Virus record (IMG/VR): IMGVR_UViG_3300032087_004307
Coordinates: 1 to 64,000 of that record
Direction: 5' to 3' (one strand)
Origin: a virus
DNA length: 64,000 bases
Position 1 is the stretch's first letter, and each line of letters begins with the position of its first letter. The translations under genes and the position numbers were made by a program. This document shows positions 1 to 18,700 of this stretch, piece by piece. The notes below the pieces were generated by a model. It saw only the letters and a list, made by a program, of their open reading frames with translations, had not been told where the DNA came from and ran no database searches.

Positions 1-407
1 GTTCCAATAATAATAGTACCAGCAGCATCAGCGTACCATGTTACAGTTCCTGTACCTGTTGTATTTGCAGAAAGATTTAAGGTGTCATTTAAGCAAATAG
101 GGTTAACAGGATTTATACTAATTGTATTTTGTGGATTAATTGTTATTTGTACAGAATCTACAGAAGGACAAGCATTTCCTGCAGAAGTCGTATTATAATA
201 AATAGTATAACTACCAATCCCTGTTAATGTAATATCAATTTCTCCTGTTGTTGCATTAATAGTTCCTGATGGAGATATAGTAAATGTACCACCATTAATA
301 CTATAACTCAATAGACTTTGCGTTTTGGCCTTTAATTGGGCCTGTTGATTATTTAATGTTACTCTGTAATTCGCAAATTCCAGAGCCTTTGTCAAGCGGG
401 TACTCAT
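1..407 (-). CDS. Ig-like repeat virion/adhesin protein, C-terminus beyond window
   Basis: Open to the left edge, so only the first 135 residues are visible. The first ~35 residues (MSTRLTKALEFANYR...) are a compact, charged N-terminal segment. After it come beta-rich, Thr/Asn-rich stretches that read like tandem Ig-like/PKD-like modules: one with a SISPNPVNPICLND-type pattern, then a TVTWYADAAG-type strand. Such modules are common in large secreted proteins of Bacteroidetes and in phage fibres. I infer a structural or adhesin role, because it lies in the fibre region and has its own late-type promoter box 5 nt before the ATG. It also holds the only GCWGC word I found in the window, which may mark recent acquisition. 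The exact family is not recognised. Confidence 0.6.
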   Translation of the reverse strand, partial: MSTRLTKALEFANYRVTLNNQQAQLKAKTQSLLSYSINGGTFTISPSGTINATTGEIDITLTGIGSYTIYYNTTSAGNACPSVDSVQITINPQNTISINPVNPICLNDTLNLSANTTGTGTVTWYADAAGTIIIG

Positions 408-412
408 GTGTA

Positions 413-420
413 TATTTATA
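413..420 (-). promoter_or_regulatory. Late promoter box TATAAATA, leaderless
   Basis: On the minus strand the sequence is TATAAATA, then 5 nt (TACAC), then the ATG at 407. It matches the T4 late promoter box exactly. Transcription from such a box normally begins a few nt downstream, so the message would start at or next to the ATG, with no ribosome binding site. Confidence 0.7.
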
Positions 421-424
421 AGTC

Positions 425-455
425 AAAAAAAAGCCAGTTACTGTGAACTGGCTTT
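425..455 (-). terminator. Rho-independent terminator
   Basis: Read on the minus strand there is a perfect 10-bp stem (AAAGCCAGTT / AACTGGCTTT) with a 6-nt loop, followed by a run of eight T. It lies 17 nt after the stop of the fibre gene at 472-1491 and would end that transcript before the next late promoter at 413-420. Confidence 0.88.
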
Positions 456-471
456 AAAAGTTGTATTTTTA

Positions 472-1491
472 TTATGATCCGCTTATAGTTCCAACACTTA
501 CTGTAGGTGCTGTAAAACTAAAACCTGATCCACTTGCGTCTGGTGAATGAGTTCTACCATTTAATGTGATTGTTCCATCTACACCGTCATTGTTGTAACT
601 TTCATCACCTGTACCTGCAATACCATCTGGTCCTAATGCACCTGCACCTGCGGAATGTGGATCACTAAATGTTGCTTTACATGTAACTATTGTAGGATTG
701 GTTGTGCTGTTTACTTTTGCTTCTAGTCTAAAGAAGTTACTAGCATAACTACCTGAACCAAACTTAGTCCAAATTGTTTGATAACTTGTTGTAAGTTCGT
801 AAAAACCTACGTTGTTGTTTGTTCCTGAAGCACCTGCACCTGTTTGGTAATCTAGAAGTACATTTTCCATTGCACTTAATGTATTTGTCCAGTTAGTGTT
901 CTGTGTGGTTGAACTACCACCGGCTCTTGAAGCAGTAAATCCTATTCTGCCACCACCATTAAAATATGCTCTACACGCCGCTTCTGTGCCCCATGTATAA
1001 GTTGCTTCTGCTGTTAAACTGTTTGCCCAAGCACTAGTGTAAGTTGAACTATCACCTGTTGCATAAGTTCTACTTGCTGGACTAAATCTAGCATTCCAAC
1101 AATCTTGTATGTTTAACATTGTGTTAGTCCAAGTTGTTGCTGTAATAGATCCTCCATCAGCAACATCACTACCAACACCTGATCTAACTGATACACCTAA
1201 AAAGGCACACATTGCCTGTACGTCATCCTGTAATCTTTTAAACCCGCCTGTGGCGTTATCGGCATAAATTAAACCACCTGCTGAAGCGGCATTAACACCT
1301 ACTCCGCCTTGACCCCATCCAAATGTATTTGATGCTGTATATGTTCCGGTTGTTACATCAGCCGCTGTACCTAATAATGAATTCACATTGGTACGCATAT
1401 TATTGAAATCTCCGTCTTCAATACTATCTCCTGCAACAACACCTGTCATTGTAGTGCCACCTGACACATTGTAATTAGATCCTGAAGGCAT
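472..1491 (-). CDS. Tail fibre / virion structural protein
   Basis: 339 residues, rich in Ser, Thr, Gly and Asn, with no transmembrane or signal segment. The N-terminus (MPSGSNYNVSGG...) and internal signatures such as ACRAYFNGGGRIGF and IWTKFGSGSYASNFFRLE are of a kind that recurs in tail-fibre-associated structural proteins of marine T4-like phages. This is recognised from memory and not checked. The gene has a clear ribosome binding site (AGGAGA before the ATG), a GATAAATA late box at 1525-1532 with a ~33-nt leader, and a strong terminator at 425-455, so it is a single-gene late unit. Exact role within the tail is not visible. Confidence 0.7.
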   Translation of the reverse strand: MPSGSNYNVSGGTTMTGVVAGDSIEDGDFNNMRTNVNSLLGTAADVTTGTYTASNTFGWGQGGVGVNAASAGGLIYADNATGGFKRLQDDVQAMCAFLGVSVRSGVGSDVADGGSITATTWTNTMLNIQDCWNARFSPASRTYATGDSSTYTSAWANSLTAEATYTWGTEAACRAYFNGGGRIGFTASRAGGSSTTQNTNWTNTLSAMENVLLDYQTGAGASGTNNNVGFYELTTSYQTIWTKFGSGSYASNFFRLEAKVNSTTNPTIVTCKATFSDPHSAGAGALGPDGIAGTGDESYNNDGVDGTITLNGRTHSPDASGSGFSFTAPTVSVGTISGS

Positions 1492-1524
1492 ATCTTCTCC
1501 TAAAAAAATTTATTCTGTTACTTG

Positions 1525-1532
1525 TATTTATC
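1525..1532 (-). promoter_or_regulatory. Late promoter box GATAAATA
   Basis: GATAAATA on the minus strand, followed by a ~33-nt leader containing AGGAGA and then the ATG at 1491. This is the conventional, leadered form of late promoter in this genome and contrasts with the leaderless one facing the other way at 1555-1562. Confidence 0.75.
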
Positions 1533-1554
1533 CTTTTTTTAACTTTTGCGATAA

Positions 1555-1562
1555 GATAAATA
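1555..1562 (+). promoter_or_regulatory. Late promoter box GATAAATA, leaderless
   Basis: GATAAATA on the plus strand, then 5 nt (TGATT), then ATG at 1568. An upstream in-frame ATG at 1562 overlaps the box and would not be in the transcript. Divergent from the minus-strand box at 1525-1532. Confidence 0.7.
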
Positions 1563-1567
1563 TGATT

Positions 1568-2125
1568 ATGAAAAACATTAAAATAAAGCATAATGTATTG
1601 ACAAAAGAGCAATGTGTACAAATCATATCAGATGCTAAAAATTTCGAATATGATATTCTTAAAAAGGATGTTGCTGAGCAAAATATTCATCTTACAAAAG
1701 AAGAGTTAGATGCAAATACTATAGAAAGAAGTTTTGATCAATCTAGTGACATGCGTAAAGTATCTCAATCGGCCATGGAACCAGTATTTCCAGAATGGGA
1801 CGGTAAACCTGTATACAGATGTAAAGTTATGAAGTACGAAAAAGGTGAGTATGTTCGTGAACACAGAGACGCAGAATGGATGTGTATGAGTAACTATTGG
1901 GCTCCTGGCACAAACAAAAGTTCAGATTCTGTTATGATAATTCCACTTAACGATGATTATCAAGGTGGTGAATTTACTGTTGATAGACAGGTAATCCCTC
2001 AAGAAGTAGGAAGTGTTATTCAGGTTCCTTGTGATGCTTTAGACAGACAAAATAATCCCAAACATGGCGTAAAAACAGTAAAATCAGGTACAAGATACAG
2101 TTTAGTATTTTGGAATTTTAAATAA
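1568..2125 (+). CDS. 2OG-Fe(II) oxygenase, prolyl 4-hydroxylase-like
   Basis: 185 residues from the ATG at 1568. The longer ATG at 1562 lies inside the late promoter box. The iron-binding HxD is EHRDAEW (H99, D101). The distal His is in NPKHGVKTV (H166), and the 2-oxoglutarate-binding Arg is in SGTRYSLVFW (R176). GGEFTVD before the distal His is typical of the P4H-like phage oxygenases. Enzymes of this family hydroxylate protein side chains (usually Pro) or small molecules, using O2 and 2-oxoglutarate. It is the only plus-strand gene among minus-strand fibre genes, is driven by a late box, and its 3' end overlaps the next oxygenase gene by 24 nt tail to tail. I infer modification of a virion protein; the substrate is unknown. 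Confidence 0.82.
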   Translation: MKNIKIKHNVLTKEQCVQIISDAKNFEYDILKKDVAEQNIHLTKEELDANTIERSFDQSSDMRKVSQSAMEPVFPEWDGKPVYRCKVMKYEKGEYVREHRDAEWMCMSNYWAPGTNKSSDSVMIIPLNDDYQGGEFTVDRQVIPQEVGSVIQVPCDALDRQNNPKHGVKTVKSGTRYSLVFWNFK

Positions 2126-2584
2126 TTTATTAAACCATGCAACTAGAGATATTCTAGTTCCTTCTTCAATTTTAGTTACTTCATGATATTCTGTAGATGG
2201 AAATAATATAGTTTGTCCTACATTTAATTTTACAACTTTATCATTAATTTTTAAAACTCCGCCTTTTAAATCAGGGCTTTCATAAATTAATGTAGTTGAA
2301 GACCAAATTCTCTTATTATTACCTTTTGCAATATCTTTATGTTTTGTAAAGTAAGAGCCTTTTTTATATATCAATAGTTCTATTTGGCATACGTTACAAT
2401 CATCAATACAAGAATTTAATTTTTCAGTTATATCCCAAAAACCCTCCATGGTGAGATAAACTTTGTCTGTTACTCTGGATTTAGATAATCCTCTACTAGT
2501 CTTTGCTGGAATAGGATCTGTGTTTATAGCTCTTTCATAAAGTCTTTTTAATTCGTTAGACGTTAATATTGTTCTATATTTCAT
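2102..2584 (-). CDS. Second 2OG-Fe(II) oxygenase
   Basis: 160 residues. It carries the same triad as its convergent neighbour: HxD in FTKHKDIAK (H82, D84), distal His in TEYHEVTKI (H134), and Arg in EGTRISLVAW (R144), with LKGGVLKIND before the distal half. Overall similarity to the 1568-2125 protein is limited outside these motifs, so the two are relatives but not a recent duplication. The start overlaps the end of the preceding gene by 11 nt, which suggests translational coupling at the end of the minus-strand chain that begins at 5562. Substrate unknown; a fibre protein or the product of a neighbouring enzyme are candidates. Confidence 0.8.
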   Translation of the reverse strand: MKYRTILTSNELKRLYERAINTDPIPAKTSRGLSKSRVTDKVYLTMEGFWDITEKLNSCIDDCNVCQIELLIYKKGSYFTKHKDIAKGNNKRIWSSTTLIYESPDLKGGVLKINDKVVKLNVGQTILFPSTEYHEVTKIEEGTRISLVAWFNKLFKIPKY

Positions 2585-3179
2585 TTAAAATAGTGTCTAT
2601 AATTTCCCAATTATCTTCTGCTTTACCATAATTATTTGCGGCACCAACAAAGTCTCCGTCATTTGGTCTTATAATTTTAGGATATATTTTTCCTCTATAC
2701 CTAGTTGGATATGGCCAGGAAAAATCAAATGTTACTTTGGTTACAGCATGTTCAGTATTAAGTTCTAAATCATGATAGTCATTATAACGGTGGAACATAG
2801 TTTCGCCTGGATTTAAAGTTTTTCTAGCCATTTCTATAACTTCAACATTTTCGTGAATAGTAAAATTGCCTCCATCAGTCCAGCACTCTACCCATTCTTC
2901 TCTGTATTCTGCTGGGTTGCTTACTGGCTTTATGTCGTATAATATATTATCATAACTACCATATATTGCTTCTGATGTGAAGTTCTCTCTGTGTGTATGC
3001 ACATATTTGGAAATGGCTTTTATATATTTGTCTGAATAAAAATTTATAAATGTTTGATCTTTCATACATAATCTGATACAACCTAAGCCATGATAATAAG
3101 GTTGCAATGGACTACCTACACCACTATGCCGTTGGTCTTCTTCATCAACAATGTTTTTTCTTAAGTAGTCAATATCCAT
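2574..3179 (-). CDS. Unknown protein in fibre-modification cassette
   Basis: 201 residues, not recognised. Soluble, mixed alpha/beta composition, no signal peptide or membrane segment. A His/Asp-rich stretch (PGETMFHRYNDYHDLELN, roughly residues 122-139) followed by FDFSWPYP looks like a possible metal-binding or cupin-like strand region, but no full motif can be assigned. It overlaps its upstream neighbour (sulfotransferase-like) by 11 nt and its downstream neighbour (oxygenase) by 11 nt, so it is translated as part of the same tightly coupled chain and probably works with them. Confidence 0.7.
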   Translation of the reverse strand: MDIDYLRKNIVDEEDQRHSGVGSPLQPYYHGLGCIRLCMKDQTFINFYSDKYIKAISKYVHTHRENFTSEAIYGSYDNILYDIKPVSNPAEYREEWVECWTDGGNFTIHENVEVIEMARKTLNPGETMFHRYNDYHDLELNTEHAVTKVTFDFSWPYPTRYRGKIYPKIIRPNDGDFVGAANNYGKAEDNWEIIDTILNEI

Positions 3180-3681
3180 ATTTGTATTCTGTTTTAAAAA
3201 AGTTATAAAATCTTTCTGTATGCCTGATTTTTAAATTATGGTGTCTAATTAGTTTATCTATTTCTATTCTGTTAAAAAATAAATCTTCATAATACCAAAT
3301 TTTATCGGTTGCTGTGGCTTCCAAACGATTAAAAGTATCGTAATAAAAGTCCCTGATACCTTTTAATTCTGGTATGCTGTCATCTTGTTTATACTTGTCA
3401 ACAAAGTTTCTGGATTGTTGTGCCTGTTTATAACTTTGAAATCCTGCTTCTTTATCCTTCCTGCTTATGTAAATTACTTTATCATAATTATTTATTGTTT
3501 GTTCCCAATTATCTTTATGATTTACTAAACTTTTAACAATATGTTCTCCCTGTATTGTTACTGGATTCCATTTACTCCAGGGCTCGTAATAAGAATGATA
3601 TTCAAAATAATTGCTGGAGATTGCCTGATACAAAGCACCAGATCCGGATCTAGGAGTTGCTAGTATTAATAAATTTTTCAT
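3169..3681 (-). CDS. Sulfotransferase-like protein
   Basis: 170 residues. The N-terminus MKNLLILATPRSGSGAL is the 5'-phosphosulfate-binding loop of PAPS-dependent sulfotransferases (PRSGS at residues 10-14). A second recognisable piece, KVIYISRKDKEAGFQSY, resembles the 3'-phosphate-binding strand and helix, where an Arg and a Ser are usual. Members move a sulfuryl group from PAPS to tyrosine, sugar or lipid hydroxyls. The protein is shorter than typical family members (often 250 or more residues), so it may be a minimal version. It overlaps the nucleotidyltransferase-like gene by 4 nt and the next gene by 11 nt. The target is unknown; fibre protein or surface glycan are guesses from context. 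Confidence 0.72.
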   Translation of the reverse strand: MKNLLILATPRSGSGALYQAISSNYFEYHSYYEPWSKWNPVTIQGEHIVKSLVNHKDNWEQTINNYDKVIYISRKDKEAGFQSYKQAQQSRNFVDKYKQDDSIPELKGIRDFYYDTFNRLEATATDKIWYYEDLFFNRIEIDKLIRHHNLKIRHTERFYNFFKTEYKYGY

Positions 3682-4169
3682 GCTTTTAACTTTATTAAGT
3701 CACTTAGCAATATGGGATAAGTCCATTTTCGTTCTTTATATTTTGTATCTTTTCTGGCAAATATTTGTGTGACTTTAAAAAGTCTGGGATTTATTTCTAT
3801 TGCTTCTCGGCCGTGATAATCATTGTCTTTTTGTCGCCAAAGTTTATATCTGGTAATCTCTTCATCAAAATAATATATATCATCCGTACATTCGTTAAAT
3901 CTGGAAATATGTTTGAATAAATTTGTGTTTGGGCTCAACACAGGATCTAATGGAAGTGGAAACAGATTGCGGTATTTTCTATATACATCTAACACCTGTT
4001 TTCCTATTTCAGGTGTAACTTCGCCTATAATGGTAATATCAACATCAGGTGTTTCATTATAGGGAAAATTTCCCATTAGGTAAATATCATGATCTGGAAA
4101 TTGTTCTATTAATTTATCGCTTTGTATAAGTTCAATAAAATCATCCAGTTGTTGGCGCATAGTCTCCAC
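3678..4169 (-). CDS. Nucleotidyltransferase-like protein
   Basis: 163 residues. The segment IYLMGNFPYNETPDVDITIIG resembles the core of Pol-beta-type nucleotidyltransferases: a Gly-containing loop (G33) followed by an acidic pair (D42, D44) on a beta strand. The usual GS motif is replaced by GN, so activity is uncertain. Such enzymes attach a nucleotide to proteins, antibiotics or RNA. The ATG lies inside the 3' end of the Hint-domain fibre gene (29-nt overlap), which ties its translation to that gene. A second ATG three codons later (MRQQLDD) is equally possible. No helix-turn-helix or toxin/antitoxin partner is visible, so a role in the fibre-modification cassette is more likely than a MNT-type antitoxin. 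Confidence 0.5.
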   Translation of the reverse strand: METMRQQLDDFIELIQSDKLIEQFPDHDIYLMGNFPYNETPDVDITIIGEVTPEIGKQVLDVYRKYRNLFPLPLDPVLSPNTNLFKHISRFNECTDDIYYFDEEITRYKLWRQKDNDYHGREAIEINPRLFKVTQIFARKDTKYKERKWTYPILLSDLIKLKA

Positions 4170-5562
4170 TTACTGTACTCTTAACTGTTGTGTCTGTATG
4201 GTACACATAATACCAACCAGGATTAGTTCCCAGATATACTGGATCTACATCTTCCTTTTGATAAGTTGCACCAGTTACTTCCTGGCATGTTCTTCCGTCT
4301 TCAGTCTGAGCTTGTAGCATTGCTTCTATAGGTGCCCAATGAGAGACTCCTGTGGCATCGTCTGTGAGATATATTGGGTGGTCATTTGTTATGTGTAAAC
4401 CATCCATATCCCAATAACCAGGTCTGTTATGTGTTCTGGCTTCTGTGACTTCAACATATTGATCAGCAACTGTGGTATCTTCTAGATCACCTCTGGCTAA
4501 AATTTTATCTCCCACAACAATGTCACCTATTCTTACAAGACCACTTCCTTCCTTATATACTTTCATATCTGGCATAATACATGTAAAGCTCGGATATTCG
4601 TATGCGTCTGCCTCTAAATCTAGGACGCCAAGGGCACTATTATAAGTGTGTATTTGATCATCCTGTCCATTTATTCTAATCTGTAATGCGGCATATCCAC
4701 TGCTACCGCCGTCTAAAATTGTTTGGCCATCTTCACCTTCATCAACATTAGTATGAACACCTAAAGAGTTGTAACAAATATTGCCACCACTGCCTCCTAA
4801 AATTGCAGGAGTAATCTCTTTCCAAGCACCAGTCCAGTCACCACTACTAAGGCTATTAGGAATCACAAATTCTTGCTGATTACTATAACTTCCACCAGGC
4901 TGAATTCTGGCATATACTCCATCGCCTATTGCATCAGCATCTCCTTGATAAGTTATACTAACATCTTCTAATATCCATCGAGCTTCTATTTTTGTACACT
5001 GAGTTCTTTTACTGTTCCACAGGCCTAGGCCAATACTTGTAGTACCAGTGGTTGCCGGGCCGCTATAACTATGATCTAGCATTTTTATCAGATCAGCATA
5101 ATAGTAAAATGTACTACCTCCATAGGTAAAAGAGGACTGACTGGTAGCAAAATGTATATTCATTGTGGTTGTTGCTTTAGCATTACCGGTACTGTCGACA
5201 TCAGTATGAGTAAAGTAACTACTACCAACAGAGGTTGCTTTATTTCCATTTTCACCCAAAAGTCTCCCTAATGTAAATCCCCAAAGACTGTAAAATTCTG
5301 ATATTTTAGGGTCGGCAGGTAATTCAGCAAGAGTGTACGACCACATACCTGTACCTGGATTAAACGTGGCGGCGGTGGCGTTTTGATATGTTTCAAAAGG
5401 AATATTTATATATGCAGAACCACCTGACAGATAATCGTTATAACTATCACTAGCCAATCCACGTAATGATACATTTGTTGCGGCAGGAAATGTACTAGGG
5501 TTACCCAGTTTCTCTAGTAATATATCCCTCATGGATATTTCTCCTGATGCTGGTAATGTCAT
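4141..5562 (-). CDS. Tail fibre-type protein with C-terminal self-processing Hint domain
   Basis: 473 residues. The N-terminus MTLPASGEISMRDILLEKLG is a start common to phage tail and fibre proteins. Residues ~40-320 are a beta-rich, Gly/Ser/Thr structural body. From about residue 328 the protein turns into a Hint (hedgehog/intein) module: it begins with Cys (TCIMPDMKVY), continues with RIGDIVVGDKIL, and has the TxxH block in HITNDHPIYL (T392, H395). There is no His-Asn pair or following Cys/Ser at the C-terminus, so true splicing is unlikely; N-terminal cleavage at Cys328 is the expected activity. It heads a chain of overlapping genes (nucleotidyltransferase-like, sulfotransferase-like, unknown, oxygenase). 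The stop lies 2 nt from the next fibre gene upstream. Confidence 0.8.
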   Translation of the reverse strand: MTLPASGEISMRDILLEKLGNPSTFPAATNVSLRGLASDSYNDYLSGGSAYINIPFETYQNATAATFNPGTGMWSYTLAELPADPKISEFYSLWGFTLGRLLGENGNKATSVGSSYFTHTDVDSTGNAKATTTMNIHFATSQSSFTYGGSTFYYYADLIKMLDHSYSGPATTGTTSIGLGLWNSKRTQCTKIEARWILEDVSITYQGDADAIGDGVYARIQPGGSYSNQQEFVIPNSLSSGDWTGAWKEITPAILGGSGGNICYNSLGVHTNVDEGEDGQTILDGGSSGYAALQIRINGQDDQIHTYNSALGVLDLEADAYEYPSFTCIMPDMKVYKEGSGLVRIGDIVVGDKILARGDLEDTTVADQYVEVTEARTHNRPGYWDMDGLHITNDHPIYLTDDATGVSHWAPIEAMLQAQTEDGRTCQEVTGATYQKEDVDPVYLGTNPGWYYVYHTDTTVKSTVSGDYAPTTG

Positions 5563-5563
5563 A

Positions 5564-8500
5564 TTACTTCTCGTTTAGTTGGCGTTTTAAGTCGTCTACT
5601 TCTGCTTTTAAATCTTTTATAGACTCTATTAACAAGCCTACCATTTTTTCGTATTTAACTGCCAACATACCATCTTCACGTTCTGTTACAACTTCTGGTA
5701 ATACCTTTTGTACTTCCTGTGCTATAACACCAGTGTCATGTCCTTCATATACGTCTTGCTTGTCGTTCCAATCGAACTCAACACCACGTATTTTTGTTAA
5801 TTTTTCTAATGCATTTTCAATTGGTTTAACATTGTCTTTTAATCTTTCATCTGAACTATAATAAGCAACAACGTCGCCTGTGGATCTGACCAATCCAAAT
5901 TGTACTGTACTTGTTGTATCAGTTGCTTGGTTTGAACTATACGTTGTATAACCAGGTCCATTTGTAAATTGGTTTAAATTTGAATAAGTTGTATTGGTAT
6001 CCGTCCAAGGTACATTAACATACATTTGACCACTTGATAATTCAACTGGATAGTTTTTACCATTCTCGGAATATCCAATTTTAACAAGACCTAATGTACT
6101 AGAAGTTGCTTGTGAATAAGTTGTATCTGTATATGAAGTTAAATATCTACCGTCTAAATCTACAACATGGTTACTAATTCCAGACATTGATAATGTTAAT
6201 TGTCCGTTGCCACTATTCCATGTAACACCATCAACATAATAGTTATCGTTGGTGTCGGTATTTACTACCGTTTCAGTTCCGTGTGTTAGACCGGTAACAT
6301 GACCAAATTCATCAAATGTTAATCCTGTAACATACCTTCTACCACTTGCAGTTAAATCACTAACACTTGAGGTATCTTTATGACTAAACACAGTTCCGTT
6401 AAGTTCCAGGCCATTTCCACTAGCAGTATATGTTGTGTTAGTATTTGTGTCTACCCAAGGAACATTAACATACGCCTGCCCACTTGCATTTAGTTCAATA
6501 GGATAATTTTTACCGCTTTCTGGGAATCCAATTTTTACAAGTCCTAATGTACCGCTTGATGCTGTTGAATAAGTTGTATTTGTATCTGTCCAGGGAACAT
6601 TTACAAATGCTTGAGCACTTCCATTAAGTTCTAATGGATAATTTTTCCCATTCTCAGTATAACCAATTTTTAATATACCTGCAGTACTGCTGGTTGCTGT
6701 ACTATATATAGTATCTGTTGTACTATATCTGCCATCTAGATCTACTGTTTGGTTTGTTGTACCATTTACACTTGCTGTTAATACACCAGTACTAGTATTA
6801 AAAGATAAACCGTCTACATAATAATTTGCTGTACTTACTGATCCGAAACTAAATGTACCGTCACCGTCAGATTGTAGAACCTGTCCTGCTGAATTAGTTG
6901 AGTCTATGTCAGTAAGGTTTACAAGTGTTGTAACACCTGAAGGCAATGCTGTTGCCTCCCATCTGTTATTAGATCCATTCCAAATAAGAGCTTGTTGGTC
7001 GGATGGGCTACTATAACTTACATCTGACAAATCTGTTAAATCAGCCGCTCCAATTCTGGCATCTGCTCTAGCATTTGTGTAGTATAAATTTGTGCCTTCT
7101 GATAAATTAGTTGTTGACTTGGTAGCCAAACTTGTATCTGCAGGTGTGAATGTAAAAGTACCGTTTCCATTATTATATGTTAAAGCACCATTACCACTTG
7201 CACTATTACTTGTTACACTAAAATTACTGTATGTTGTAATATCTGTATAAGTACTACCATCATTTGTAAACTGCCATTTGTCTGTGCTTTCGTTCCATCT
7301 GAGTCTTACATTTGTAGAACTTCCGCGTTCAACTTCTATTCCTGCATTTTCGCTTGGTGTTCCTGTTACATCACTGTTAAGTGTTATTTCATTATCTGCA
7401 ACACTTAAAGTTGCGGAGTTGACCGTTGTTTGTGTACCAGTTACATTAAGATTTCCTGATATTACTACATTTTGGCTAAAGTTTGTGTCATTAGAAAATG
7501 TTTTTACACCAGCAATAGTTTGAGCACCACTTGTTCTAACAACTGTATTATCTACATCTGTAGTTAAAGTTGTACCTGATGCAGATGTTGTTATACCATC
7601 ACCGCCTGTAAATGTCATTGATGCACTATCTACTGTAGCATTACCAATTATTACTGCACCTGTGCCTGAGTCACCACCAAAGTCTAAGTCTTGTGCTTTA
7701 TCTTGAGTTTCAACATAACTCTTTAAGGTAGCAATTTCTGTATCTACAAAAGTTTTTACTGCTCTTTGTGTAGGTAATTTGTTGTCACTATTAGAAGATA
7801 ATGAACCAGAGCTATCAAAGTCTGTTATCGATATTGAACCGTCAAATAAATCACCAAATGTAATTCTTCCGCTAAATGTTCCATTTATAGCACTACCAAT
7901 ACTTCCTGAATTTATTTGTAAGACATTATCTGTTAATGTTGCACCATATATTGTGGCATTACTTCTAATGGTTTGGTTTACTTGTAAATGATTAGTAATA
8001 TTAACATTGCCTGTTAAATTTGAATTACCTGTTACTGATAATATTTCACCTACATTTACGTTTGCGTTAGCATGTACGTCATATGTATAAAGATCTGCAA
8101 AAGCCTTTTCTGAATTCCCTAAAATACCTAAATTGTCTGTTGCAGTTTCTATTTCTGCTTGACCACCGTCGCCTAATTTTACTCTTTGTGCAAAAAGTGT
8201 ATCAAAGTATTGTGTAGAACTTCCTAAAGTTAAAGAACCTGGTGAACCAGTAGGTATAAAACTAATATCGTCAGTAATAATACTTGCCGCTGATACAACC
8301 TGACCTGCTCTAAATAGGGCATTTGCCTTTTGAGCAGTAATGGCTTCTGTTGCCAAATTAACTGCTTCAGCAACATAGTCTTTACGCAAGTTCATACCTT
8401 TATTAATAATTACACCAATACCACCTGTAGCATTTAATTCTGCATAGTAATTTATGCTGTCGCCTTCTGAATTTGATATTACATTATCTGCTGTAAAGGT

Positions 8501-9109
8501 TGCATCATGGTTAAATATAGCCATGATTGTTTCACCATTTGTACTGGTACCGTATAATTCATTACTTGTGGAATTGTTTACATAAACTAATGCCATACAT
8601 GGATGAACTCTTCCTGAAGTATCTTTTAAAAATATTGCTCTAACTTTAGCACCAAATTTTGTAGGGTTATGTACTAAACTATCACCTGATAATGCACTTG
8701 TTTCTTCACCTGCATACCCTGTAGGTTTCCAACTAGCACCATCATAAATGTAAAATTTATTATTAGAGGTATCAAAATATCTTTCCCCTATAATAGGAGT
8801 AAGTCTTGTAGGTGCTGAATTAGTTACTAATGGTTCTAAATTTACCCATTCGCCTGATGTTCCTTTATAAACTCTTAATACATTATCTGTTTTGTCATAC
8901 CATAGTTGGCCAGTTAAAACTGTTCCAGCCGTAGGTGCAGATATACTTGCAAAATTTTCTAATAGTTGAACATCATTTCTCGCAATCTCGTCTGCATAAT
9001 TTTCTGCATTAGTTCCTATCATTGACACTGATAGGGTACTACTGTCAATGACGCCGTCTTGTATTGTAAATTTTAAACTACTATCTGTATTGTTTACTGA
9101 ATATGGCAT
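5564..9109 (-). CDS. Long tail fibre with C-terminal S74 autoprocessing chaperone
   Basis: 1,181 residues. The N-terminus MPYSVNNTDSSLKFTIQDG and a QTIAGVKTF/VERGSSTNVRLRW region are typical of T4-like marine fibres. The middle holds four near-identical repeats ending in YVNVPWTDTNTTY-type segments. The last ~97 residues are an S74 intramolecular chaperone: YYSSDERLKDNVKP (cleavage expected between Ser1086 and Asp), RGVEFDWND, TGVIAQEVQKVLPEVV, LIESIKDLKAEVDDL. This domain trimerises the fibre, then cuts itself off. No promoter or terminator was found between it and its neighbours, so it is probably read from the 9766-9773 late box or further upstream. Part of it is paralogous to the plus-strand fibre at 56049-59708. 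Confidence 0.92.
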   Translation of the reverse strand: MPYSVNNTDSSLKFTIQDGVIDSSTLSVSMIGTNAENYADEIARNDVQLLENFASISAPTAGTVLTGQLWYDKTDNVLRVYKGTSGEWVNLEPLVTNSAPTRLTPIIGERYFDTSNNKFYIYDGASWKPTGYAGEETSALSGDSLVHNPTKFGAKVRAIFLKDTSGRVHPCMALVYVNNSTSNELYGTSTNGETIMAIFNHDATFTADNVISNSEGDSINYYAELNATGGIGVIINKGMNLRKDYVAEAVNLATEAITAQKANALFRAGQVVSAASIITDDISFIPTGSPGSLTLGSSTQYFDTLFAQRVKLGDGGQAEIETATDNLGILGNSEKAFADLYTYDVHANANVNVGEILSVTGNSNLTGNVNITNHLQVNQTIRSNATIYGATLTDNVLQINSGSIGSAINGTFSGRITFGDLFDGSISITDFDSSGSLSSNSDNKLPTQRAVKTFVDTEIATLKSYVETQDKAQDLDFGGDSGTGAVIIGNATVDSASMTFTGGDGITTSASGTTLTTDVDNTVVRTSGAQTIAGVKTFSNDTNFSQNVVISGNLNVTGTQTTVNSATLSVADNEITLNSDVTGTPSENAGIEVERGSSTNVRLRWNESTDKWQFTNDGSTYTDITTYSNFSVTSNSASGNGALTYNNGNGTFTFTPADTSLATKSTTNLSEGTNLYYTNARADARIGAADLTDLSDVSYSSPSDQQALIWNGSNNRWEATALPSGVTTLVNLTDIDSTNSAGQVLQSDGDGTFSFGSVSTANYYVDGLSFNTSTGVLTASVNGTTNQTVDLDGRYSTTDTIYSTATSSTAGILKIGYTENGKNYPLELNGSAQAFVNVPWTDTNTTYSTASSGTLGLVKIGFPESGKNYPIELNASGQAYVNVPWVDTNTNTTYTASGNGLELNGTVFSHKDTSSVSDLTASGRRYVTGLTFDEFGHVTGLTHGTETVVNTDTNDNYYVDGVTWNSGNGQLTLSMSGISNHVVDLDGRYLTSYTDTTYSQATSSTLGLVKIGYSENGKNYPVELSSGQMYVNVPWTDTNTTYSNLNQFTNGPGYTTYSSNQATDTTSTVQFGLVRSTGDVVAYYSSDERLKDNVKPIENALEKLTKIRGVEFDWNDKQDVYEGHDTGVIAQEVQKVLPEVVTEREDGMLAVKYEKMVGLLIESIKDLKAEVDDLKRQLNEK

Positions 9110-9121
9110 ATTAATCTTCTA

Positions 9122-9760
9122 TTAACTTAATTGTATCCTTACGGTATAAATAATTTCTATAATTCTGTTTTGTGATTTCTGTACTGGGTGGAATACCACG
9201 TGTGTTAGCATTTTACTTGTTGTTATATTTGTATTATCTGTCGGATAACTAAAAAGTGCCAACTCATCAAATACATAACTTCCATCATTATCTGTACTAC
9301 TATCAAATAAATCTTGATCGCTTGGCTCTGCGTAACCCAATGTACATGTAATTTTTAAATCTGTAAATGATGATCCGGATACTACTTCAATTTTGTCTGT
9401 TGAAGTATTATTACTTATAATTTTATTATATGATCTTGAATACAAATCAGCACTTGCTTCAAAACTTTCACTAACACGTGGCGATTTATATACAACTTTA
9501 CCTGCTGTATCAACACTCGTACCGCCATTACCAAATGCCATAAAATGTATTTTAGCATTATCTCGTGCAGTCGAATCTCCACCTAGTGCATTTGCAACAC
9601 CATTTGCCATGTTACCATAGTGAATAGCATTCCTTTTGTTTACAAGTTCCTCACCTGTTTCTTTATCGCGAATCAGTATGTGACCGTTCATACCTATTCC
9701 AGCATGTTCATTAACTGCTTCTGGTTTTTCATTTTTCATTTCTTCGCCTTCTTGTTTCAT
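9122..9760 (-). CDS. Virion structural protein (baseplate/fibre attachment)
   Basis: 212 residues from the ATG at 9760 (MKQEGEEMKNEKPEAVNEHAG). A longer reading from 9775 starts inside the promoter box and is rejected. The body is beta-rich: GMNGHILIRDKETGEELV near the N-terminus, then a central KIHFMAFGNGG stretch and a C-terminal QNRIIEIIYTVRIQLS strand. Proteins of this kind occur next to fibre genes in T4-like marine phages and are annotated as virion structural proteins; the exact position in the particle is unknown to me. A late box at 9766-9773 lies 5 nt from the start codon, so the message should be leaderless. The next gene downstream is the S74 fibre. Confidence 0.72.
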   Translation of the reverse strand: MKQEGEEMKNEKPEAVNEHAGIGMNGHILIRDKETGEELVNKRNAIHYGNMANGVANALGGDSTARDNAKIHFMAFGNGGTSVDTAGKVVYKSPRVSESFEASADLYSRSYNKIISNNTSTDKIEVVSGSSFTDLKITCTLGYAEPSDQDLFDSSTDNDGSYVFDELALFSYPTDNTNITTSKMLTHVVFHPVQKSQNRIIEIIYTVRIQLS

Positions 9761-9765
9761 AACAC

Positions 9766-9773
9766 TATTTATC
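9766..9773 (-). promoter_or_regulatory. Late promoter box GATAAATA, leaderless
   Basis: Minus strand GATAAATA, then 5 nt (GTGTT), then ATG at 9760. The upstream ATG at 9775 overlaps the box, so this site decides the start of the gene. It likely drives the downstream fibre genes as well. Confidence 0.72.
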
Positions 9774-9793
9774 ATCTTCGTTATACCCTGTTT

Positions 9794-12700
9794 TTATTCA
9801 CGACCATGTAGGAATCGCATTATACTTGAACTATCACTAACATTAGCATTTCCTAAGTCTGCTAAACTAACAGCACCATTATCTAACCAAACATTGCTTG
9901 ATGTTGGGTATTTTTTAAATTGTTCTGAGCTGTTTGCATTTATTACCTCAGTACCTGATGCCCAATCTTGTATAGATGTTCCGTTTGTTCCTCTAGTTAA
10001 ACCAGATAGTTTGTTTGTGTTAGTATTTCTTTTTGTATACTCAATTCTTTCTGATCCCACCCATATAATACCTGGAATTCTTGCTAAAGGTTTTGCAAGT
10101 ACACTTGCATTAGCAACTGTTATTTCATTACTATATGTGTATAAATTTGCTGAAGTTGTAGTTGTTGTACTTCCATCTTGTTTAATTCTAATAAATTCTG
10201 AGTCACCGTATATATTATTTGTGATTTGATATTTAACTGTTGAGGCATTTGCACTTGCACTACTTAAACTAGTATTACCTTGTAAATGTTTATGCGATGT
10301 AACTCTAAATATTAATGTCTCTAATGGCTCAACCATAACAAGTTCTTGTGGTCTTTCTTCACCATATAATACACGTTTAAATGTTACCCCATCAAATCCT
10401 TCGTATACTGTTCCATCTCTTTCAAAACTTACTTGATTGCCTGCAATAGCGGTATTAAATACACCTTGATAATTTTTTACATCAACTTGTAAATCTATAG
10501 GACCACTATTCCATTTAGTTCTATTAAATCCTATTTGTGATTGGAACGTATTAGTATCAACACCAAATGCTTTATTAAATAAATCTCCATCAATTGTTTC
10601 ACCTAGGAAATTACCGCCTGTAGCAATTTGTATCAAAGACAATGTTTTATTTAAACTACCACTATTGACAACTGCTGTGATGTTTGCTATACTACTACTT
10701 AGATTAGCACTATTGATTACATTTGTATTTGATACTGCATCAGTTATACTATAATATGTATTTAATTCTGCCGCAAACTGTGTTTGAATAGCAGGATTAA
10801 ATTTAAATGCTCTTTCAGAAGCAGTTACAAGTGTGTTTGCTTGTACATCTGCATTTGATTGTACTGTTAATGTAACCATGTTTCTGGCGATCGCACTATT
10901 GGCCGTATCTGCTACTGGAATTACACTAACATTACTGCCTAGTGCTGACCAGTTTGTACTACTAAAGGAGGAGGCTCCTGCAATGTCTATATTTGCTTTG
11001 TAGTATGTTCCATTATTGACTACATATGAGTTGCGTGGGTAGGTTGCGTTAGCCGTCCATGTAGCAATATTAACTGCTGGTAGATAGTCATGTGGTAATA
11101 ATTGATAATCCACTCTATCAAATTTAATTGTTGTATTACTGTGCCTTATTGGGTCTAAAGATTTATTAGATATACTGTAATAGTTTGTATATGCATTGTT
11201 AGTTTGTATAATATTTGAATCTGCTTGTACAAAGTCGTCTAATATCCTTACATTACCTGTAACAGGGTCTGCATAAGGTGGTTTATCAAAGTCACTTACT
11301 GCATTCGTTCCAATTTTTTCTCTAATAGGCGATTTACCATCTTTATATTCTCTAACTTTTGCTGTATATGGTTTTACTTCATCAAAATACTGTAATACTT
11401 TGTCAAAATTATCAACTTTAAAGCCATTAATTTCGATTAAGTCCTCTTCTTCTTTTTCTACAAACACATAACTAGTTTTAAATGCCCAATCTAATTGCTT
11501 TTGTTCAGTATATGCATATTTCATAAGTGCAAAGAACAGTTTGTTCCATAAATTGGTTCCTGCAAACACATTATCACGTAATGCAACTAATAAAAGCCTT
11601 AATTCACTACTTAATGTGTTGTTTGTGTTGTCTGTATATATAGAAGTTTTTAATCTTACATTATCGTTTTGAATTGATATTAAGTCAAACGTTTTAGTTG
11701 CAGAAATGTACTTATGTAAAGAATAATACTCTGAATTAGGACCTTTTACCTGTACAATAGTATTGTCAGGTATGCTTTGTAATGTATCTAGTTCTTGAAC
11801 ACTATTTACTTTATAGATTGGTTTAAATGTTGCATCATATCTTACTTTCTTATTGGTTCCTGCGTCTACATATTGCGTACCGTACCAATTTACTGTTTCA
11901 ATGTATGTTCTTGAAGCAGGTATGCCGTTATCCCAATCTGGATAATTAGTTGATAACTGTAAGTCTGCTAATATTTCATTTAAAGTATAATGTAACACTT
12001 GTCTAGCACCTTTTAGGTCTTTAAACATACTTTGTCTAGGTCTAAATTTAACTCCATATGCTTCTACTTCACTTAAAAGTGGATCTGGGACTGCTTGACC
12101 TAGTGCATCAGTACCTGCTAAACTGTCAATAAGTTTGTCACTTAAATCTTCAGGAATTATGCTGTTGTTGTCATCTTGTCTAAGCAGTTTCCATGCTGTA
12201 TGTTTTTGTCCTACAGGATTTAAGTTTCTGCTAAAGTTAATCTGTAAGTTTTGCTCATCTTCTCTTAATAATGGAGCAATATTACTTAACACCATTGCTT
12301 TATCACTTACAAAACTGATTAGAGGCAGTCCAGCACCAATAGGATCTGCTAGATATTTTGCTAATGTAAAGGTATCGTACTCTCTTCCTAATTCTTCAAT
12401 AGCAGTATTTTCTAAATCTGTTTTATTCTGTACCCAGAAGTAGTAATAGTTGGCATACCTTCCATTTACTGGATTAATTCTTCTCTCTACAACAAACTCT
12501 GAATTGTTTTTAGGTGTACCAGTACCATTATAATTTACAGGAGGTACAATATCCTCTACCCATTCAAATAATGTAATACCACTACCAGGGAAGGCTTGTC
12601 CCCAATTTAACCATCTGTCACGATTTGTGCCTTGCTCATACCATTTGTAAGCAATAGTGCTTGTATTCCACCAAACTTTACCGATATCTTTTCTACCAAA

Positions 12701-15700
12701 ACCAGTTCTTGCATTATTATATACTACAGGGTCGCTTGGTCCAGTAAATGCGATTTCTTTTTGTATAAATCCTGGTATTACTCCTTTAAAAGGATCATAA
12801 AAATGTAAATCGTATTCTTTTTCACCAGTTTCTTGATCATATATAATTGCATTGTCTACAAAAGTTGTATCAACCAAATTAGGCTGTGTTGCTTTTGCTA
12901 CATTGCTTTCTAAATATGCCCAACCTGAATCATTATAATTATCAATCCAAACATTGCTTAGTGTTTCTAGGTTTACATTTACACCATCTTTAACAACAAC
13001 ATTGCCATTATTTTTATTGTATCTTGCACTCTCTAAATATAACACACTACATTCTTGTTGTAAGTTAAGTGTATTTACTGGCTCTCCACTAGTTGTTCGT
13101 AATTCGTACTGGAACATGTCAGTTGTAAATACAACATTTGCATCTCCTAAAATACTATTAGGATCTTGACCATTACGCCCTACACCTGAATCTGAATCCC
13201 CTGGACTACCATTACTGCCATATCCATCACCAATTGTGTCAATACAATTAATTGATATTACTGGTGAATCTGGTATTGTTGCTACCTGGAATCTGTTATC
13301 GTCTAATAAATTTGTTCCGGATTCTATTTTATTTGCTCTTCTAATTGGTGAGTTAGGTGTTTCTAATACTGCACTAATACATAAACTGTCAATATTATAA
13401 TCTCCAGGCGGTATACCTAGTTTTTCTAGGAATCCTGGTGTAAGTTCATCAATTGCTATACCGTCATATCCAGGTGTTCTGAATTTTAACAAGTCAATTA
13501 AGTCATTTACATTTTCTGTATCAATATGTATTTTATCTGGATCGTATCCTGCATCAAATAATGCATTATTTAAACATGCCGCAATATCTTCTGGGATATT
13601 AATATCTATAACTTGATCTGGGAAGCCTAATTTAGATTTAGCATCTCCCTTTTCAGAGCAGTCAGGTATTTCCCTTGCTGTTAGGAATACCCTAGCACCA
13701 GTACCACCACCAACTAAACCATTAAGTGGGTCATAGCCTCCTGGTGATTCCAGTCTATCGTTATCGTTTAAAGGATCAAATTGTCCTAATCCTGTACCTT
13801 GGAAAAATACTCCGTTTGCATCTACGCCTGATTCGTCTCCTAAACCAACAGCATCGTACTCCAATGGTACACCTTGTGTTAAGTCTGCAGGAAACTGTTT
13901 ATAAATTCCTCGATCAATAATTTGTAAACTTGTAATAGTTCCGTTTGCATCAACACTTGATACAATAAACTTGGCTACTCTAGGTGGTAGTCCTCTTCCG
14001 GTACCTATTTTAACAGATACTTCTGCAGGAATTCCATTTTGTATAGCACCTTCTCCTAAATCTAGAATTTTTACTTTAGGCGGTCTTGCAAAGTCATATC
14101 CTTCACCGCCTGAAATTATTTCTATACTTGCTATTCCACCGTTTTCATTTAATATTACAGTACCTGCTTTTGCACCTGAACCTGGTGTAGTACCGTCTCC
14201 AATATAAACTTTAACATTTCCGGCACTGGTGTAATTCATACCAGGCATATCGATACAGAATTCTGTAATACCACCATATGGATTTTCTATTGGTAACCCA
14301 CCAACTATTCTTAATCTATCACCAACACCATAACCACTACCACCTGTTGTTTTAGAAGTTGTTTTGCTAGAAAGTATTTTACCATTATCCATATCTGGAG
14401 ATGATACATTTCTTCCTGCTCCTGTATAATCAGTAACTGTGCCAGATGCATTATACAAAGTATACATTTGTGATGTGCCTGCTCTAGCATCAACACCTAC
14501 ATTACCATTTGCATATCCGTAACCTGTGGTTGCTGGTATTACTGCTGTATTACTTGTTTCTGTTTCGCTTTGTTCAAATCCTCTAACAACATGGAAGTCT
14601 AATACTTCTTTGTAAATGCCTCCTGAACAACCGTCTCTGATTGTTAATGGCGCATTACTACAACTACTAACTCTTAGTGCTGGTTTGCCATCTTTAAACG
14701 TATCATGTACCATAAAGCCACTGCCTTGAGTACATCTTAAAGCATTTTCAACTACTTTGGTATCTGAACCTGGGAATTTAATTTTTGTATTATTAATAAT
14801 TAATTCATCACCTGGTGTAATACCTGTCATATCATCTAGTGCAATAGTATGTCCAGGAGTAGGTCTACTTAAATCACAATATACTGTTGGACCTGCTGGA
14901 ATATAATTTCCATTTTTGTCTTTAATTTTAGGAGTAATTCCTATAACTGGGCTTTCACTATATGTAACATTACTGTCATATGGTGAGTCTTCAGCCGGCA
15001 ATGTATAACCTGGTTCTAGATTAATTGACCCATTATCAGGATTAGGTAAAATATTAGGTATTTGACCAGGATAGTTTAATATCACATCACTTGCTGGTAT
15101 GCCACCTGATAAATTAAAGTCGTCAAGTACATTTCCTATAACTGTGCCGTCCTGCAATCTAATATCAGTACCTATTTTTCCTGGTGTATATGTAAAGAAA
15201 GTATTACCTTTTTTGTAATAATTGTCTCCTGTATATGTAAGCTCGTTCCAGAACGGATAGTTTGAAATATCTAATGCTCTTAGTTTACCAGGCTTACTTG
15301 GTGCAACGTTTCTTAAAGGTTGTGCAAGAGGTAATATTTTTCCTCCTGTAACACGTTGTACAGTATTGTTTACAAATTGTGAGCCTGTTAATGGTTGATA
15401 TTTTCCATAACTATTACTTGCTGTAACTTTAACTGTCTTTTTAAATATATCAGGAATCATACTGAAACCTGCCATAGGTGCTAATCCCATTCCTCCATAG
15501 TTTGCTGAATAATGATGACTGGTACCTGATTGTTTTATTGACCCGCCACCGCCTCCACCGCCAGGCTTTCCTATACTCTGATAATAATTATACATCATAT
15601 TAGACTGTGATCCGTAACTACTATAGCCACCGCCACCGCCGCCACCGCCACCTACGCCACCATAAGATGCTCCAGTATTTTTCTTAGTGGTTGTTTGGTT

Positions 15701-18700
15701 ACCACCTGGAGAGTAAATAGGTGTCTGTACGCCTGTGGAAGGTGTTGGTGTCTGAGGATTATAAATTGCTACATTACAAGATTGGCCTGGTGCAGGATTG
15801 CTCTTTGGCTCTGGCGGTTTAGGTGGTGTGTCTGGTAATTTGATTACATATCTATATACAATAGAAGGCTTATTAACTTTTACTTTAAGGTAAGTACCAT
15901 TATTAATATCTACCGCTACAGTTAATTTACCACCATATCTTACATTTTGACCAGAGTGTGCGAAGTCTATAACTTTAGAGCCACTACCAAACTTGGTTGC
16001 ATTGTTTGAACCTGCTTTTGTGAGTATTTCTTGTTTTTCAGCATCTGTAAGTTTTATAACTGAGCCTTGGTCCATTGTTCCGCCAAGTCTTTTGCTTTCT
16101 CCACCTTTACTTACACCTTGGAATACTTCTAATCTGTCAGCACCGCTGTACATATCAAATAATATTTCTACTACACCACTTCCTTTTAATGTATAAAAAT
16201 TATTGTCTTCCTGATTTGCTGATCTATTATGTTGCTCATGAAATGTAATATTAGAATTACTGTAATTTTGAGATACAGGCAAGTTAGCATATCCTGATGT
16301 TGATCCTGGGCCCGGCTGTAGTGATTTAGTACATGTATCTAATCCTGATGAGCTTGTAGAAATATGCATACACAAACCATGCCAATGGTTACTACCACCC
16401 CTACATGTGCCTTTAAATTGTATTATGTCTCCTGCAGAAACAGTAAATGCTTTTACTCCACCTGGTCCATTAAAACTAAATCCTTTACCTGTATGTACGG
16501 AATTTTGTCTTCCTAAATTTGTTGTACCATTAGTAACATTGTTAATTTTTACATAAGTTCTATCGTTATAACCACTTCTACCTGCATTATAAACATGAGC
16601 ATAAAAAGTTCCTGCTTTATTGAATTTCAATTTCATATTAAAATTCATTGTGCTACCATTATCACTCCATGTCATAACACCTGCTAAACCTCTAGCACTA
16701 AGTCCGCCTCTACTTCCACCAACTTGGCTAACATATCCTGCATTAGGTCCTTTGAGTACATAATGTCCTGACCAATTTCCTCCAAAACGTCTATCTCCAT
16801 GACCTCTTCCGCTAATACTATAAACTCCAGGATTTCCTGCTGAGTCTACTAATGAGCCACCAAAGCAGGTTGTTGTCATTACTGGAGGACTTACAACTCC
16901 ACCTGATACTGGTACAGCCGGAGTTGGAGGTATATGTATAGGACTACACATATCAACACAAGGTTTTTTACTAATATTTGCAACTGCTTTTCTAGGATCA
17001 ATAATTGGTTTAGCACCACTATCTATTCCGGAGCCTGGTACAGGTGTACCATTCTCATCAGGGAAATTAAATAAAGGAACCTTTGATGGGTCTGTTGGTA
17101 TACCATAATTGTTTTTACTGCCCAAGTAAAATGGATTTTTAGTGCCTGTGTTTAAAGTTGTTGCTGGGTCATTACCAACAGCATCAGTTAAATTGGTTGG
17201 GAAATCTGGATTATTTGGATCATTTACAAATCCTTTTTTATTAATTCTATAATTTAAATCACCTGCTTTTGTTAATCCGTCGCCTAATAATGTATTTTCT
17301 ACATTGTCGGCATTAACATATGGTGAATACCCATCAACTTGTCTGTAATCACTTAAAATAGGAGTAAGTTTATTATTATTTTTACCAGTAATCATTGCAA
17401 ACGATATTTGAGTATGGTCATTATCTACTGCACCACGTCTTAAAGCCATTGCATTGTTAATACTATCTACAACATCTTCTTCTGATTTAATATCTCCTAA
17501 TACAATCTCTGTGTTGTTGAGTTTAATTTTATTGTGATCTACAGTTGTTAAAAGAGCTGGTTTTCCAACATTTAGATTATCAGATTCAAAAGTTGATCCT
17601 GAAGTAAATGCATTTGCGGCCACATAAGTAACAACTCCATTAAGTATTCTTTCACCTTTTGCAAAAGAAGTACTTGGTGCCCATGCTGTAAACTGAGCAT
17701 TGGCCACATCAGCAAAACTAAATGCATCAGAAATAGTAATTGTGTTAGATGTTCCTGTTGTGACTCCTGTCACAGTATAAACTTTGTTGTAATAGTCTGG
17801 TTCAGCCATGTGTACAGCAATACGTTTTCCTACATATTCTTCGCTGATGCCATGGTCTTTATCAGTGTGAATTACCATACCAGGTTTGATAATATTTCCT
17901 GTTTTACTTACATTTGCATTATAAGGTTGGTTAATTACAAAAGTATCTTCTGTAGCACTCTCTATGTAATAATATCCACTATATGCACTAGCAATTAATT
18001 TTACTACATCACCTTGTGCCAAATTATGGTCTACTGTATTGGCTGTAATTTTAGTTTTGCCATAGTAAGCAATGCTTAAAATATCTCCTGAAATATTAGA
18101 TGTAACATTTGCATCATAAACTGTAAATCCTGCACTTGTAACATTTGAGATAGTATAATCTTTTGTATGTAAATTACTATGATTATTGTATTTAAATCCT
18201 GTAACTCCCATTACAGCAGTATCGATCTTGTCGTAATATATACTTGCATTACTATCTAATGGGAAGTCATCGCTTTGTATAGCGATTGCTGTACCTGAAG
18301 GATCTATATCACAAATTGGGTATACTCTTCCATTGTAATCACTATTAGTAGAAACTACTTCAATAGAACTTCCTATTTGAACCATATTGGCTGGCCCATA
18401 AGTTTGTAAATTGCCACTTACAGAAACCCACAACTTCGTAAGATCTGTTTTGCGTACGTCTATCGCTTCGCCACTAACACTTAAATAACTTGTTGGTATT
18501 GTTAGTGAATTGTTATTTCCTATATACTCTGTAGCAGTTGTTTTAACAACTGTACCAGTACCTGTGCCGGCTGTAGTGGCTGTAAATATATCACCTACAT
18601 CATAAGTAACACCTGAAGTACCTGCAGGAAGATTAAAATCGGTATTGCCTAATGAATTAATACTGTACTCTACATTTGCTACTATATTACCTGCAGTAAC

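Follow-up and report, generated by a model that had tools for sequence, protein, structure and literature searches.

A nucleotidyltransferase-like and histidine-rich protein pair encoded behind tail fibre genes: a candidate fibre-modification cassette in viral contigs

Phage adsorption is usually explained by the sequence of the fibre alone, and enzyme genes that lie directly behind a fibre gene raise the question of what they act upon: the fibre, the surface that the fibre binds, or something unrelated to either. We analysed such a locus in a stretch of 64,000 bases (the window) from the 65,737 bases of IMG/VR record IMGVR_UViG_3300032087_004307, where five minus-strand ORFs overlap in series (5562-2102) and a 2OG oxygenase ORF (1562-2125) is convergent with them. 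All of these ORFs are present as a preliminary description had claimed; position 1568, given there for the facing oxygenase, is the second ATG of an ORF that begins at 1562. The genes upstream of the cassette encode tail and baseplate proteins of a T4-type myophage, and the closest major capsid proteins, at 68.5% identity, belong to jumbo Pseudomonas phages of the PA5oct type; the earlier label 'T4-like' holds broadly. The features of the locus are as follows.

5564..9109, minus strand: long fibre protein, first of the fibre pair, with a C-terminal S74 intramolecular chaperone (Pfam PF13884, 9.6e-19; PHROG tail-fibre families, to 1.4e-32)
4141..5562, minus strand: small fibre protein ('MTLPASGEISM' type) with a C-terminal Hint domain, 473 aa (ORF; assigned by position and shared N-terminal motif, without family match)
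4144..4581, minus strand: Hint (intein-like) domain, Cys1 at 4581-4579, TNDHP block B, C-terminal His-Asn absent
3678..4160, minus strand: minimal nucleotidyltransferase-like protein (NT), core gene, 160 aa from ATG 4160; the alternative GTG 4169 gives 163 aa (3678-4169)
3169..3681, minus strand: sulfotransferase-like protein (ST), optional gene, 170 aa, PAPS-binding type motifs, weak Pfam match
2574..3179, minus strand: histidine-rich core protein (the "unknown" of the preliminary description), HTH...H, 201 aa, five invariant His, without family match
2102..2584, minus strand: 2OG-Fe(II) oxygenase A, 160 aa, at the end of the operon (PF13640, 3.7e-11)
1562..2125, plus strand: 2OG-Fe(II) oxygenase B, convergent, 187 aa (PF13640, 2.9e-7)

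Gene order and the constant core

Relatives were gathered by scans with the NT, ST, histidine-rich protein and Hint sequences, which yielded seven further contigs: L002 (G001), L003 (G002), L005 (G003), L011 (G004), L024 (G005), L025 (G006) and L026 (G007). The sample thus comprises eight contigs including the window, some of them from related phages. L024 is cut inside the gene for the histidine-rich protein, and the upstream side is readable in seven of the eight; the ST and histidine-rich protein genes of L011 were left out, being broken by many small frameshifts near the contig end that look like sequencing errors. The gene orders are:

Window, L002 and L003: fibre, Hint fibre, NT, ST, histidine-rich protein, 2OG
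L005: collagen-like fibre, Hint-free fibre, NT, ST, histidine-rich protein; on the opposite strand, 2OG and PLOD-like genes
L011: as L005 through NT; remainder error-ridden
L025: fibre, Hint fibre, NT, histidine-rich protein, 2OG; ST absent
L026: fibre, two small genes, Hint-free fibre, NT, histidine-rich protein; ST absent, no 2OG behind

L002 and L003 also carry an extra gene (88 and 92 aa, respectively) between the two fibre genes.

In all seven readable contigs the gene immediately 3' of the fibre is NT, and this small fibre protein is of the 'M-x-x-P-x-S-G' type wherever it can be read. Profile searches found NT once in seven of the eight records and the histidine-rich protein once in all eight, always at the cassette places (a second match to the latter in L011 is the same broken gene); where both are visible they occur together, once each (7/7), and no relative of the pair without a fibre neighbour was found in these searches of the eight records. 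The remaining members behave differently: ST, by profile search, is present in five of the eight contigs and missing in L025 and L026; the Hint domain occurs in four contigs (3/5 records by profile, plus L025 by reading and alignment) and is absent from L005, L011 and L026; a 2OG gene follows the cassette in most contigs, with turnover of the gene at this position. The constant core is fibre - NT - histidine-rich protein, and ST, Hint and 2OG are optional. What had been described as a fibre-linked gene set is a real and conserved operon, whose core pair was found beside fibres in other viral contigs and, in the records searched, was not found away from them. The idea that its members form a single functional set was not supported by the comparison: since some contigs lack Hint or ST, the parts are not one obligatory pathway, and a single fixed pathway made up of all the genes in the run was rejected with ST, Hint and 2OG each absent or displaced in relatives. 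Occurrence of the same genes away from fibres, named beforehand as evidence against the proposal, was seen for 2OG genes, which in these genomes also adjoin DNA-replication genes and for this reason say little, but not for the core pair.

The overlaps, reported earlier as 4-29 nt, are present as well. In the window they measure 29 nt between Hint fibre and NT (20 nt if translation begins at the ATG, which is the more likely of the two starts as it matches L002 and L003), then 4, 11 and 11 nt, with oxygenases A and B overlapping tail to tail by 24 nt. The NT/ST overlap of 4 nt and the ST/histidine-rich protein overlap of 11 nt recur in independent viral contigs (4/4 with both genes readable), the Hint/NT overlap of 20 nt recurs in three contigs, and in contigs without ST the NT gene overlaps that of the histidine-rich protein by 8 or 11 nt. 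Because the same sizes recur across contigs, the pattern is more than chance. In five of seven contigs the NT start is nested inside the fibre ORF, by 20 or 29 nt, and in the other two it lies 2 nt behind the fibre. Promoter and late-promoter scans performed no better than shuffles.

Comparison of the window with L002 gave identities of 29% for the fibre part, 65% for Hint, 61% for NT, 75% for ST and 73% for the histidine-rich protein; the 29% applies to the N-terminal 327 aa of the Hint protein against both L002 and L003. By these identities, a variable fibre is followed by a conserved tail module. Between L002 and L003, dN/dS is 0.12 for NT, 0.03 for ST, 0.16 for the histidine-rich protein and 0.29 for Hint, values by which the cassette genes are under purifying selection. 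These results bear on the possibility that separate genes merely hitch-hike with a recombining fibre module and share no joint function: this would suit Hint, ST and 2OG, which come and go independently, but NT and the histidine-rich protein are never apart in seven contigs even though the fibre N-termini diverge to 29% identity, and the purifying selection also speaks against it, so that we regard hitch-hiking as quite improbable.

The encoded proteins

The six aligned NT members share three invariant Asp residues, D39 and D41 in a DxD motif and D72 as the third, whilst the hG[GS] motif is degenerate (MGN, WSN, WSS, WGT). NT has no Pfam or PDB-sequence match. Its AF2 model (pLDDT 54) starts with helix-strand-strand-helix, and the top PDB matches of this model in Foldseek are weak ones to 1ylq, MNT and HI0073 (prob. 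0.96-0.63, E 0.09-0.27). Together this is suggestive of a Pol-beta-type minimal nucleotidyltransferase of the HI0073/MNT type. MNT proteins transfer NMP to a partner protein, as with HEPN partners (PMC7641770, PMC11586414), and NT shares with HEPN-MNT and HI0073-type proteins the catalytic Asp pattern, the best, though weak, fold matches and the two-gene unit; it differs in having a partner that cannot be recognised as HEPN, in its link to a fibre and in sequence similarity too low to be detected.

The partner, the histidine-rich protein, matched nothing in family searches, HEPN and other toxin families included. H30, H61, H63, H130 and H136 are invariant in six members; five His among 30 invariant columns would arise by chance with a probability of about 0.006 given the composition, and H61, H63 and H136 are spaced as HxH...H, in the manner of a metal site. 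On this pattern it is probably a metal-dependent protein and possibly a cupin-type metalloenzyme; its AF2 model reached a pLDDT of 37, and Foldseek on that model was uninformative. Membership of the HEPN-MNT toxin-antitoxin group was rejected with the partner lacking a HEPN match. A broader proposal would see in the two genes a pair for counter-defence, RNA modification or a toxin-antitoxin function, with no relation to the fibre, that is retained as a moron where the late operon ends. MNT antitoxins are indeed among the best fold matches of NT, and the overlap of 8 or 11 nt without ST makes a two-gene unit; against this stand the lack of any toxin family match for the partner and the constant position of the pair behind a fibre gene, as morons usually move around. 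We consider this proposal quite unlikely.

In the case of ST, the motifs ATPRSGS (5'-PSB) and YDKVIxISR..AGF.SY (3'-PB) are invariant in four members, of which two match PF13469 (best E 6.6e-4); the window ST matches only PF09037, below the cut-off (E 0.014). ST is best described as PAPS-dependent sulfotransferase-like, with weak Pfam support. Supply of PAPS by the phage itself was rejected, as a search of five contigs, all of them possibly fragments, turned up no APS kinase. Sulfotransferases of the same broad family (PF13469) occur in OM43 phages and in Synechococcus phage S-SRM01, where the authors call their function in phages unclear (PMC10580990); the ST of the cassette differs in that it gave no convincing tblastn match to any isolate phage.

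Both oxygenases retain their ligands (A: HKD, H134, GTR; B: HRD, H168, GTR) and score above the PF13640 cut-off, by which they are bona fide members of the 2OG-Fe(II) oxygenase family. Oxygenase A is unlike the 2OG protein at the same position in L002, L003 and L025 (26-31% identity), whilst oxygenase B is related (42-48%) to the co-directional 2OG that follows the cassette in these three contigs: on these identities, A has in the window taken the place that relatives of B hold elsewhere.

The first 87 residues of the Hint domain, as a profile, match PDB 2LWY in register (E 1.2e-4). Matches of the profile to 'Cake' and 'Scone' in the PDB were discarded: they look like summed weak matches to designed propeller repeats and vanish without that stretch. 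As in bacterial intein-like (BIL) Hint domains, Cys1 and TxxHP are present (Cys1 and TxxH, here TNDHP, are invariant in the four Hint contigs). The domain differs from the BIL type in its fusion to a phage fibre and in its C-terminus, which reads VSG[DN]Y[AS]PxT in 4/4 contigs and lacks the splicing His-Asn. A splicing intein was rejected on this ground; with His-Asn absent, N-terminal cleavage, or transfer of the fibre C-terminus to a nucleophile, is to be expected instead of splicing. The predicted cleavage site is just before Cys1, and the Hint-free fibre of L005 ends near the point where Hint would cut.

Fibre or host envelope as the possible target

The probable role of these enzyme-like proteins is to add chemical groups, either to the fibre or to its binding target. 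Fibre neighbourhood alone is not proof of the former, since the fibre regions of marine myophages are known as hotspots for surface-sugar genes (PMC7029224). In the main rival reading the cassette would modify the host envelope late in infection (lipopolysaccharide or capsule sugars), which would block superinfection or the loss of progeny to debris, and fibre adjacency would follow from the region being a host-recognition hotspot. Sulfotransferases commonly act on glycans, a point in its favour. Further support comes from the pelagimyophage host-recognition clusters, which mix fibres with LPS-type glycosyltransferases (PMC7029224), and from jumbo phages, which carry surface-sugar clusters (PMC7824862). 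Pelagimyophage clusters and the present cassette have in common enzyme genes beside variable fibres in T4-type phages, marine ones in the former case, but differ in that no LPS-type glycosyltransferase was seen in this cassette. More widely, the cassettes show no apparent gene for a glycosyltransferase or for sugar-nucleotide metabolism, the five contigs searched gave no APS kinase, and the nested NT start in 5/7 contigs suggests a tie to the fibre itself. Modification of the host envelope appears somewhat unlikely to us.

The reading that we favour, tentatively and at a little below even chances, is a fibre-linked post-translational modification cassette: NT and the histidine-rich protein as a core whose translation is tightly coupled to the 3' end of a small variable fibre gene, into which ST, 2OG and a self-cleaving Hint domain are plugged or from which they are lost. 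The nested starts fit enzymes placed under the translation of the fibre itself, and modification of a late structural product. The operon layout would allow fibre and enzymes to be made together, presumably from a late mRNA. Where Hint is present, with its Cys1 and TxxH residues in place, it could cleave before Cys1 and release a mature fibre ending near the end of the Hint-free L005 fibre. NT might then transfer NMP or a similar group to a fibre hydroxyl, as MNT does to HEPN partners, with the histidine-rich protein acting alongside it; where encoded, ST may add sulfate and 2OG a hydroxyl. Altered receptor binding as the outcome is speculative. No common modified site is visible, because the fibre proteins share little across contigs beyond the short N-terminal motif.

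The best indirect support for fibre modification comes from L005, by analogy. There the fibre ahead of the cassette is 2110 aa long and contains about 260 collagen-type triplets, and the cassette is opposed by a gene for a PLOD-like GT+2OG protein (PF25342, 2e-32), found in this one record of the eight; such a neighbourhood suggests a fibre-modifying role. The mimivirus PLOD-type enzyme L230 modifies viral collagen to yield glucosylated hydroxylysine (PMC4691112), and in both cases a viral lysyl hydroxylase-glucosyltransferase type of enzyme is paired with fibrous proteins of the virus itself. The window differs from L230 in having neither a PLOD domain nor collagen repeats, and in its enzyme folds. 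Collagen hydroxylation was rejected for the window, which holds no Gly-X-Y runs of eight or more. The more specific proposal, namely that the phage nucleotidylates (and in some members also sulfates) its own tail fibres through a nucleotidyltransferase and a histidine-rich enzyme that act on the fibre made immediately ahead of them, with Hint cleavage of that fibre as a linked step in some phages, is in our estimate rather unlikely.

The preliminary description knew of no described T4-like system with this gene set. None of the isolate phages had a convincing match to Hint, NT, ST or the histidine-rich protein, and the titles, abstracts and passages of the papers found on the topic do not describe the set. 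Bacterial and archaeal genomes yielded no convincing relative of ST or the histidine-rich protein in a scan that needs short exact peptide patterns and may miss distant ones. Enzyme genes beside fibres are already known; this particular set is a new form of that arrangement. A fibre cassette would give phage sulfotransferases, whose role is called unclear (PMC10580990), a testable substrate. If the cassette travels with the fibre, the adhesive surface of these phages would consist in part of added groups, and their binding would not be readable from the fibre sequence.

Fibre region around the cassette

In the window, the cassette is enclosed by a fibre region, with two genes for fibre- or virion-like proteins located downstream of it, and no family match was found for the product of the first of these:

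472-1491, fibre- or virion-like protein
3-407, fibre- or virion-like protein

The tail region of the window also contains an ORF of 5900 aa (9794-27496), which is exceptionally long by the standards of phage structural proteins.

Cassette relatives on other viral contigs

Additional 2OG-type oxygenase genes on the contigs of the cassette-bearing loci L003 and L002 adjoin replication-type genes (DNA polymerase, helicase), and 2OG-type genes are therefore not specific to fibres:

L013 (L003 contig) 698-1291, 2OG-type oxygenase
L016 (L002 contig) 1246-1827, 2OG-type oxygenase

In the related locus L011, the sulfotransferase-like gene and its neighbour encoding the unnamed His-rich protein (8465-9620) exhibit numerous small frameshifts close to a contig end, which are probably sequencing errors.

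Collagen-like fibre and PLOD-like gene

In L005, a further related locus, two genes were found to be adjacent:

321-6653, collagen-like phage fibre (2110 aa; ~260 collagen-type triplets)
9650-10696, PLOD-like protein combining glucosyltransferase and 2OG parts (PF25342, 2e-32)

This pair may be the phage equivalent of mimivirus L230, a PLOD-type enzyme acting on viral collagen.
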